Source: Bacteroidota bacterium
GTDB taxonomy: Bacteria; Bacteroidota; Bacteroidia; JAHEXY01
Length of the DNA stretch: 64,000 nucleotides
NCBI GenBank assembly: GCA_023251875.1
Contig: JAHEXY010000004.1
Location: 1 to 64,000, forward strand
Direction of reading: 5' to 3'
The notes below the pieces were generated by a model, which saw only the letters and a program-made list of their open reading frames with translations, was not told where the DNA came from and searched no databases. The first letter of the stretch is position 1, and every line of letters begins with the position of its first letter. A program made the position numbers and the translations under genes. Positions 14,534-17,028 of the stretch are shown one piece after another.

Positions 14534-15127
14534 ATGAACAAAACAACACTTATAATTTTAGCCGCTGTAGCAGGTTTTTTTATCTTAACCTTTTTTTGGG
14601 GAGTAGGCGTAAACAACAATATGGTTACTTATGATGAAGCGGTAACAAGCCAATGGGGACAAGTTGAAAACGTATACCAGCGTAGAGCAGATCTTATCCC
14701 TAATTTAGTGAGTACCGTAAAAGGCTATGCCAATTTTGAGCAAAAAACCTTAACCGATGTTATTGAAGCTCGTGCAAAAGCAACAAGCGTAACCATTGAT
14801 GCCAGTAAGTTAACGCCTGAGAATGTACAGCAATTTCAAGCAGCTCAAGGTGGTTTAACACAAGCCTTAGGGCGATTAATGGTAGTGTCGGAACAATATC
14901 CTGAACTAAAAGCCAACCAAAATTTTCTTGAACTGCAATCGCAATTAGAAGGTACTGAAAACCGCATTACAGTAGAGCGACAAAAATTTAATGAGTCAGT
15001 AAATATCTTTAACACCTACATCCGTAAATTTCCACAAAGTTTTATTGCCGGTTTTAAAGGCTTTGAAAAGAAAGGCTATTTTGAAGCTACTGCCGGAAGC
15101 GAAAAAGCTCCAGAAGTTAAGTTTTAA
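14534..15127 (+). CDS. lemA: LemA family protein
   Basis: A 197-residue protein with one N-terminal membrane segment (about residues 5-25, LIILAAVAGFFILTFFWG) and a helical body containing QVENVYQRRADLIPNLV and the FNESVNIFNTYIRKFP signature of LemA. It should sit in the inner membrane with the helical domain outside the cytoplasm. Function is not settled. LemA genes very often lie beside TPM/YgcG-type genes, as here, where two TPM proteins follow after an extra membrane protein gene. A repeat and a 173-bp inverted-repeat element separate it from the rest of the cluster. Confidence 0.93.
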   Translation: MNKTTLIILAAVAGFFILTFFWGVGVNNNMVTYDEAVTSQWGQVENVYQRRADLIPNLVSTVKGYANFEQKTLTDVIEARAKATSVTIDASKLTPENVQQFQAAQGGLTQALGRLMVVSEQYPELKANQNFLELQSQLEGTENRITVERQKFNESVNIFNTYIRKFPQSFIAGFKGFEKKGYFEATAGSEKAPEVKF

Positions 15128-15190: not shown

Positions 15191-15281
15191 TAAGAAAAAA
15201 ATTACGTATATGTCTTTTAACTTATATAAACTCTATTATTTGCCAAAAATCTAAATAACTCCATTATTAAAAAAAACATTA

Positions 15282-15454
15282 AGAGCCTGTTTAAATTTTA
15301 TAGTTTTATTTTACTGTCATGGCTAAAGCCCCTTTTTACATCTCATTTTACAACCCCAGACTTAAGTCTGGGGTTAAAAATCAATCAAAGATACGGGCTT
15401 TAGCCCTAAAAAAAGGATATAATCATTTTTTCAAATAAATTTTAAACAGGCTCT
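15282..15454. mobile_element. 173-bp MITE-like element with nested inverted repeats
   Basis: The ends are a perfect 14-bp terminal inverted repeat, AGAGCCTGTTTAAA (15282-15295) with its complement at 15441-15454. Inside are an 11-bp arm GGCTAAAGCCC (15321-15331) with its complement at 15395-15405, and a perfect 24-bp palindrome at 15352-15375. It encodes no protein. This is the form of a non-autonomous miniature element or a large structured repeat. No clear target-site duplication is visible. It lies between lemA and the next gene of the cluster, ending 20 bp before that gene's start, so it will be in the transcript leader and could fold as RNA. Confidence 0.7.
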
Positions 15455-15474
15455 AACTTTTTTTTATTTAAACT

Positions 15475-16563
15475 ATGTGGATCATTTTTCGTTTTGCATT
15501 AGCCGCAGCCGCATTTGGAATTCAATTTGTAAGTAAATACTCTTCTCTTTACTCTTCGAATGGAAAATATAAGCAAATCAAGTATTTTCAGAATATAAGT
15601 AGAAATAGTAAAAGTAAAAAAATCAATCATTTTGATATCGGCTTTGAAGTAAAATTGCATATTATGTTTACTTTTTATCTCGAAAATGAAAATGATCATT
15701 TTTTTAAACGCTTAGGATTATCAAATGAATTTCAAACAGGTGATATTGATTTCGACAGGAAAATTTACATTGCATGCGACCATCCTTTCTTATTAGATAT
15801 TTTAAAAAATAATGAGGTTGTAAGACAAAGTATTAAAAACCTATTCTTAAATGGTTTTACTAGAATATATTCTGATGGGAACGTCTTGTGGGCAAATAAA
15901 TTAATTCATAGAGAACCTAATAATAATGAAAAAGATTTGCTTTTTGATTTATTAAATCAATTTAATGCCTTAGATTCAAGCATTCCCAATCGTTTTACTG
16001 ATCAGTTTTTTTGGAAGGCAGTTGTAGTTCAAGGTCTCACTTGGTCAATCGCAGCTTCTGCTATTGGTAGTTTTTTTGAATATTTTTTTAGACTAGAAAA
16101 TGGATATTTAGAAAATTTTAAACTTTATCAATATGGAATAATTGCCGCAATTGCTCTTTTTATTATTTTCTTTGGTTTAACATTTCTTTTTCTAAAAGGT
16201 TCTTCAAGAGGACACAAAATAATTATTGAAAGTGCTATATTATTATTAATTGGCTTGCCAACACTTGGCTTTCAAGTGATATCTGATTTAAACAAATCGC
16301 TTGACCAATCAAATCCTGAAATTTATTTAAAAAAAATAATTACTACTGAAGCTCATAAACATACCTATCATCGTAGAGGCAGAACTAGAACTTGGTACAC
16401 CTATCATATTATAATTGATAACAGTAAAGATAATTTTATACCCCATAGTTTTGAAGTTAATTTCTCTACTTATCAACAAGCATCCTATGCAAAGCAATTA
16501 GAAATTGATGTAGCAAAAGGATGGCTAAACATTAAATGGTATAAACAATTAGTAGTACATTAA
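15475..16563 (+). CDS. Membrane protein of unknown function in the lemA-TPM cluster
   Basis: A 362-residue protein that matches no family I recognise. A weakly hydrophobic N-terminus is followed by a soluble region of about 150 residues, then three membrane segments at roughly 178-198, 217-240 and 249-270. The C-terminal 90 residues hold a Tyr/His/Arg-rich strand, TYHRRGRTRTWYTYHI, and then FSTYQQASYAKQLEIDVAKG. The strand pattern resembles small beta-rich domains that sit outside a membrane anchor, but this is inference. It lies between lemA and two TPM genes on one strand, 24 bp before the first TPM gene, which suggests a role in the same membrane process. Confidence 0.75.
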   Translation: MWIIFRFALAAAAFGIQFVSKYSSLYSSNGKYKQIKYFQNISRNSKSKKINHFDIGFEVKLHIMFTFYLENENDHFFKRLGLSNEFQTGDIDFDRKIYIACDHPFLLDILKNNEVVRQSIKNLFLNGFTRIYSDGNVLWANKLIHREPNNNEKDLLFDLLNQFNALDSSIPNRFTDQFFWKAVVVQGLTWSIAASAIGSFFEYFFRLENGYLENFKLYQYGIIAAIALFIIFFGLTFLFLKGSSRGHKIIIESAILLLIGLPTLGFQVISDLNKSLDQSNPEIYLKKIITTEAHKHTYHRRGRTRTWYTYHIIIDNSKDNFIPHSFEVNFSTYQQASYAKQLEIDVAKGWLNIKWYKQLVVH

Positions 16564-16587: not shown

Positions 16588-17028
16588 ATGACCAACACAT
16601 TTTTTACAAAAGAACAACAAAGCAAAATAGAAAGCGCTATTAAACAAGCGGAACTTAAAACCTCTGGCGAAATACGTGTACATATTGAAACACATTGTAA
16701 AAAAGAAAACATTTTGGAACGAGCCTGGGAAGTTTTTCAAAAACTAAACATTCATAAAACTAAAGATAGAAACGGGGTAATTTTTTACCTAGCAATAGAA
16801 GATAAACGATTTGCTATTTTAGGTGATGAAGGCATTCACAAAAAAGTGCCTGCCGATTTTTGGGATAACATAAAAGCCTTAATGGAAACAGAATTTAAAT
16901 TAGGTCGTTTTACAGAAGGGCTTTCAACCGGAATTTCAATTGCAGGAGAAAACTTAGAAAAATATTTTCCTCATCATAGAAGTGATGTAAATGAATTGAG
17001 TGATGTAATTTCGTTTGAAGAAAATTAA
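16588..17028 (+). CDS. TPM domain protein without signal peptide
   Basis: A 146-residue protein consisting of one TPM domain (PF04536): IESAIKQAELKTSGEIRVHIE, GVIFYLAIEDKRFAILGD and a helical end. It has no signal peptide or membrane segment, so it probably works in the cytoplasm or next to the inner membrane. TPM domains (also seen in TLP18.3, Psb32 and MOLO-1) occur in membrane protein quality control and have been reported to have phosphatase activity in plants. It sits 24 bp after the membrane protein and 11 bp before a second, exported TPM protein, a common pairing. Confidence 0.85.
   Translation: MTNTFFTKEQQSKIESAIKQAELKTSGEIRVHIETHCKKENILERAWEVFQKLNIHKTKDRNGVIFYLAIEDKRFAILGDEGIHKKVPADFWDNIKALMETEFKLGRFTEGLSTGISIAGENLEKYFPHHRSDVNELSDVISFEEN

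Follow-up and report, generated by a model that had tools for sequence, protein, structure and literature searches.

The window analysed here is a stretch of 64,000 nucleotides from the genome of a Bacteroidota bacterium of the class Bacteroidia (4.8 Mb in 23 contigs), in which a lemA gene, a 362-aa open reading frame (ORF) and a TPM-domain gene follow each other on the same strand. Between lemA and the ORF lies a short sequence built of three nested inverted repeats (Table 1). Direct reading and a repeat search recovered all three repeats of the preliminary description: a perfect 14-bp terminal pair (15282-15295 / 15441-15454), which extends imperfectly to 31 nt at 87%, encloses a perfect 11-bp inverted pair (GGCTAAAGCCC at 15321-15331 and GGGCTTTAGCC at 15395-15405) and this, in turn, a perfect 24-bp palindrome. 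The extent of 173 bp given there needs a small correction, since the triplet TAA is duplicated on both sides and the outermost A/T of the 14-bp repeat is thus part of the target duplication and not of the element, which runs from GAGCC to GGCTC over 171 bp. No ORF of at least 80 aa overlaps the 173-bp sequence, in agreement with the lack of coding capacity described before, and the impression of an order greater than chance is borne out by a folding energy of -60.9 kcal/mol, compared with -26.6 ± 3.5 in 200 dinucleotide shuffles (z -9.8), none of which folded as well. The element also has the arrangement of a REPIN, in that a spacer separates two REP-like palindromes in inverted orientation.

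Table 1. Features of the element and of its neighbourhood (positions are those of the window)
Feature	Position	Strand	Remarks
lemA (LemA family), upstream gene, context	14534..15127	+	PF04011, 203 bits
Target-site duplication, left (TAA)	15280..15282	.	Equals 15454-15456
IS5-type MITE, 171 bp, with REPIN-like core	15283..15453	+	10 near-full copies in own genome; target-site duplications
Left terminal inverted repeat GAGCCTGTTTAAA	15283..15295	+	Ends common to autonomous IS in L139
Left REP-like hairpin TCATGGCTAAAGCCC	15317..15331	+	Matched by hairpins on both sides of the L104 Y1 gene
Innermost 24-bp palindrome AACCCCAGACTTAAGTCTGGGGTT	15352..15375	.	From sequence; stems in other copies differ and are again self-complementary
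Right REP-like hairpin GGGCTTTAGCC, inverted partner of the left	15395..15405	-	Sequence and repeat search
Right terminal inverted repeat (TTTAAACAGGCTC)	15441..15453	-	Sequence and repeat search
Target-site duplication, right (TAA)	15454..15456	.	From sequence
362-aa ORF, context	15475..16563	+	Starts 22 bp past the element
TPM-domain gene, context	16588..17028	+	PF04536, 82 bits

When the genome was searched with the 173-bp sequence, ten near-full copies were obtained (at least 165 of 173 bp, 89-100% identity) in both orientations, three of them identical, together with truncated copies. Identical copies adjoin unrelated genes, and nine of the ten near-full copies are free of ORFs of at least 80 aa, the remaining one (L010) overlapping an unconfirmed frame of about 95 aa; the 171-bp element is therefore short, non-coding and multi-copy, as is expected of a MITE. 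The innermost palindrome occurs in four variants among these copies (L003, L010, L012 and L015), each of them self-complementary, a constancy that may reflect selection on structure or template-switch correction. A plasmid-borne element was also considered and rejected, as none was found.

Outside GAGCC...GGCTC, a 3-bp target duplication was present in 11 of the 12 elements of this genome having both ends and in 21 of 27 places elsewhere (20 MITEs and an autonomous IS), the duplicated triplet being nearly always TTA or TAA. Overall, 32 of 39 compares with 506 of 1482 mismatched pairs (34%), a match rate that arises because the target sites are alike. A target-site duplication of fixed length, here 3 bp, is another mark of MITEs. 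This count leaves aside L008, L009 and L011 (one end damaged or missing), C5:107240, L152 and several solo or decayed ends returned by a two-mismatch search for the terminal inverted repeat (TIR); a TIR-like site at C21:204, with no second end nearby and the end of a gene as its interior, was not counted either. The exact 19-bp TIR occurs in 16 of 395 genomes of the class, and its reversed-pattern control in none. In a genome of another family (G158, locus L139), an autonomous IS of 863 bp has the same ends as the MITE and a TTA duplication, and encodes just one IS5 transposase of 252 aa (191 bits for NF033580, whose cut-off is 110). The TIRs are thus common to an autonomous IS of the family, although one found in a different genome and not in the own one. 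Relatives of this transposase are present in 16 of 395 genomes, the own assembly contains none (0 at E<=1e-20), though multi-copy ISs look collapsed at its contig starts, and a search of the own genome with PF01609 gave no match above the cut-off. A sub-threshold PF01609 fragment of 43 residues was rejected as the partner IS, no TIR being visible in the stretch examined. The 171-bp sequence is an IS5-type MITE, an element of the expected kind with an unusual two-part build, and its copies, duplications and same-ended autonomous relative support the earlier suggestion of a MITE moved by an outside transposase.

The same ends are found around different interiors. In the own genome GAGCC ends enclose four further palindromic cores (L029, L061, L062 and L063), and in other families yet other, unrelated cores with the same 3-bp duplication. 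The core of the element, for its part, is also found between other ends (AGTTCGGTAGTTTTT in L068/L069, AACGCAAGTTGCTAGTT in L076/L079) and, without ends, in L074, L080 and L082. One of the further elements (L062:206-555, G000:C15) shows apparent nested layers, in which a GAGCC MITE contains a palindrome of TTCGGCTACGCTCAG type and this contains a unit edged by GTTTAGTTAAG/CTTAACTAAAC, which holds a repeat found beside the Y1 gene of L105; it looks like the MITE of L061, which is without the inner unit, plus an inner palindromic repeat. Two GAGCC MITEs at other loci (L127:1501-1943 and L166:2293-2650) are interrupted by TIR-bounded palindromic elements with ends ATGTTACGCAAA and CAGAGCAAACGCATGAAA.

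The preliminary description had also called the sequence REP-like, and its interior does match repeats beside a resident transposase gene. The own genome encodes seven Y1_Tnp genes, six of them with the Y---Q--HH signature, and at one Y1 gene (L104, C5:134824) GGCTAAAGCC/GGCTTTAGCC hairpins stand on both sides; it is these that the interior GGCTAAAGCC...GGCTTTAGCC pair of the element matches. The foot next to the hairpin is TCAT/TCAG or TTAG, the GT[AG]G foot being absent, and among NCBIfam models the L104 protein scores 57.9 bits for IS200, just above the cut-off of 55, and 28 bits for REP_Tyr (NF047646), under the cut-off of 80. In the same locus, the Y1 gene has its stop codon within the downstream REP hairpin (L104:1915-1923, CATGGCTAA). 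The REP motif gave 30 pattern matches in the own genome, 26 of them genuine and four being chance one-mismatch matches in coding DNA. Twenty-four of the genuine copies lie in MITE-like elements (18 in ten intact-TIR MITEs, three in decayed remnants of the same MITE and three in AGTTCGG-ended elements), the remnants and the coding matches having been assigned by eye; the other two lie beside the L104 gene, and no free-standing copy is found among the 30 matches. Three of the five core types match the flank of a resident Y1 gene (core1 that of L104, L063 that of L101 and L062 that of L105), each with a better match than at least 73 of the 74 control pieces, and the other two (L061 and L029) have no match to such a flank above these controls.

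A profile made from three L104-like proteins found relatives in 195 of 395 genomes, the best 30 loci of which were examined; these loci are not independent, as those with the hairpin come from about 15 families and include three near-copies in one genus. The hairpin motif GGCTNNAGCC lies within 300 bp of the Y1 gene in 26 of the 27 loci scored by script (24 upstream, 12 downstream), compared with two of 27 flanks 500-1100 bp away, and its background is 15 occurrences in 707,719 bp. Three further loci of the clade, checked beyond these 27, also carry it, which brings the total to 29 of 30; a repeat beside the Y1 gene, as in REPIN/RAYT systems, is therefore found at L104 on both sides and throughout nearly all of the sampled clade. 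Near other Y1 genes the hairpin was not detected (0/9 other Y---Q--HH and 0/7 NP-type genes, 0/16 in all), L289 and L299 being excluded from this comparison as members of the clade. The pair GGCTAAAGCC...GGCTTTAGCC occurs upstream, ordered as in the element, in four of the 27 loci (L347, L357, L363 and L370). Core-like matches in 60 relatives fell in three genomes (G037, G056 and G058), all with a Y1 gene of the L104 kind, an association noticed post hoc. In many cases no more than about 10 bases separate the end of the upstream hairpin from the Y1 start, whose position is approximate, and a hairpin acting as regulator of the Y1 gene, and not as substrate, is a live alternative.

Repeats are not restricted to this clade. 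The similarity between upstream and downstream flanks exceeds the 95th percentile of mismatched pairs (30.5) in seven of nine non-clade Y---Q--HH genes, L101 and L294 being those in which it does not; within the clade it exceeds its own, higher control in only 9 of 27. Similar palindromic repeats, mostly of a different family for each Y---Q--HH gene, are seen on both sides in L100, L102, L103, L105, L290, L295 and L300.

We consider it likely that the element is a non-autonomous MITE of the IS5 family with a REPIN-like cargo that belongs to a resident Y1 (HUH, IS200-like) transposase. An IS5-type DDE transposase would recognise in trans the GAGCCTGTTTAAA ends displayed by the anatomy of the element, and the 171-bp unit would have been inserted into AT-rich DNA between genes, duplicating 3 bp of the target (TTA/TAA); mobility, like any effect on the lemA-TPM genes, is inferred. 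The core, in which a GC-rich palindrome separates two inverted GGCTAAAGCC hairpins, probably derives from the Y1-flanking repeats, as motif, arrangement and co-occurrence suggest, and the Y1 repeat of this genome would then be carried by MITEs and not stand alone. The element could instead be a plain IS5-type MITE, with an interior that is filler and resembles Y1 flanks by a coincidence of short palindromes. We regard this as unlikely, although the core matches the flanks over a short length (26 bp at 88%), these genomes are rich in palindromic intergenic repeats and not every core type has a matching flank; a motif as rare as GGCTNNAGCC would hardly be expected beside nearly every Y1 gene of the clade, nor copies of the motif in the own genome to be confined to MITE-like elements and the vicinity of a Y1 gene. 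Far less probable is that the Y1 enzyme itself moves the whole as a REPIN, of which the outer TIR would be a part. The layers are symmetric, and Y1 genes of the L104 type are flanked by palindromic repeats, yet in other families the GAGCC ends, again with a 3-bp duplication, surround unrelated cores, they bound an IS5 transposase gene, and the L104 Y1 locus is without a GAGCC TIR; moreover, target duplications are not known from Y1 enzymes.

Regarding the locus itself, lemA is followed by the first TPM gene in 77 of the loci of 80 relatives, the remaining three having no TPM1 match, and the gap between both genes is 6-188 bp in these 77 relatives, compared with 1461 bp here, a distance that includes the 362-aa ORF. 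This ORF has no match in Pfam or NCBIfam and is absent from the lemA loci of the 80 relatives. The TIR was found between lemA and TPM in none of the 77 relatives, none of them close enough for an exact-site alignment, and the own genome is the sole member of its family in the sets searched. These comparisons suggest that the insertion at the lemA locus happened in the own lineage. The position in the leader of the next gene and the strong RNA fold, both pointed out previously, are right as geometry. A conserved structure regulating the lemA-TPM operon as leader or terminator, which such a fold 22 bp before the next ORF could suggest, is the least probable reading and is refuted as a conserved element by its absence from all 77 gaps, by identical copies beside unrelated genes and by Rfam, in which nine matches, all far below gathering scores, led us to reject a known RNA family; the sequence is thus neither single-copy nor conserved in place, and an effect acquired locally is possible. 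As an IS5-type MITE, the unit beside lemA may be a recent neutral insertion, whose strong hairpin could, speculatively, terminate or stabilise transcripts.

Porphyromonas gingivalis is known to harbour MITEs whose interiors vary between IS5 ends, including BrickBuilt and MITE464/PgRS (PMC4596501). As described there, these elements resemble the one studied here in their host phylum (Bacteroidota), in ends common to IS5-family ISs, in their intergenic position, in their 10-20 copies and in the presence of the same ends around unrelated interiors; unlike it, BrickBuilt is described with interiors of tandem direct repeats and not REPIN-like palindromes, with a TIR of the type GAGACC.. and with irregular target duplications (PMC4596501). 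In Coxiella burnetii, QMITE2 is a MITE containing a repetitive extragenic palindrome, and thus an earlier example of a REP within a MITE, but its REP is of the GTAG type with direct repeats of 7-9 bp, whereas the 171-bp element has the GGCTAAAGCC hairpin and a 3-bp TWA duplication (PMC10969869). Two inverted palindromes with a spacer, and the clustering of such repeats beside a Y1 gene, are shared with REPIN/RAYT systems, although classical REPs are described as free-standing and with GTAG/GTGG feet (PMC3116915), in contrast to the own genome.

The Y---Q--HH motif, on which the assignment to TnpA-Y1 subclass 1.2 is based, is present in six genes of the own genome, in the L104 protein and in its clade, all from Bacteroidetes like the subclass (PMC6006769). 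In the 2018 classification this subclass is presented as generally without terminal structures, Table 1 and the subclass section giving 'no' for REP (PMC6006769), whereas in our sample hairpins flank the gene in nearly every member of one clade. The automated REP search of that work used canonical GT[AG]G feet (PMC6006769), which the clade hairpins do not have. Among the papers listed in our literature search, in part judged by title and the start of the abstract, none was found to report the clade hairpin or a MITE with such a REPIN in Bacteroidota. As a MITE the element is ordinary, and its useful part is the link that it exposed between Y1 and hairpin: a Y1 group described as repeat-less in 2018 adjoins a specific hairpin in 29 of 30 genes sampled from one of its clades, so that its substrate becomes directly testable. 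The findings also suggest a way in which REP repeats lacking a transposase of their own can be maintained or disseminated, as passengers of other mobile elements. As a tentative generalisation, for which we would not quite claim an even chance, the subclass 1.2 Y1 (HUH) enzymes of Bacteroidia might each have a cognate REP (GGCTTTAGCC in one clade), with REPINs as cargo in DDE MITEs of IS5 type and of at least two other end types, giving rise to two-system miniature elements, often nested in several layers.

Two minor observations concern the own genome. In L008 (G000:C20:78264) 25 bp of the right flank are repeated directly in the place of the left TIR, a structure that suggests a one-ended or repair-mediated event. 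Repeated sequences of two kinds stand at contig starts (C1, C4, C7, C10 and C19 for one; C3, C13 and C15 for the other), with N at the starts of two small contigs, and they are probably collapsed multi-copy insertion sequences.
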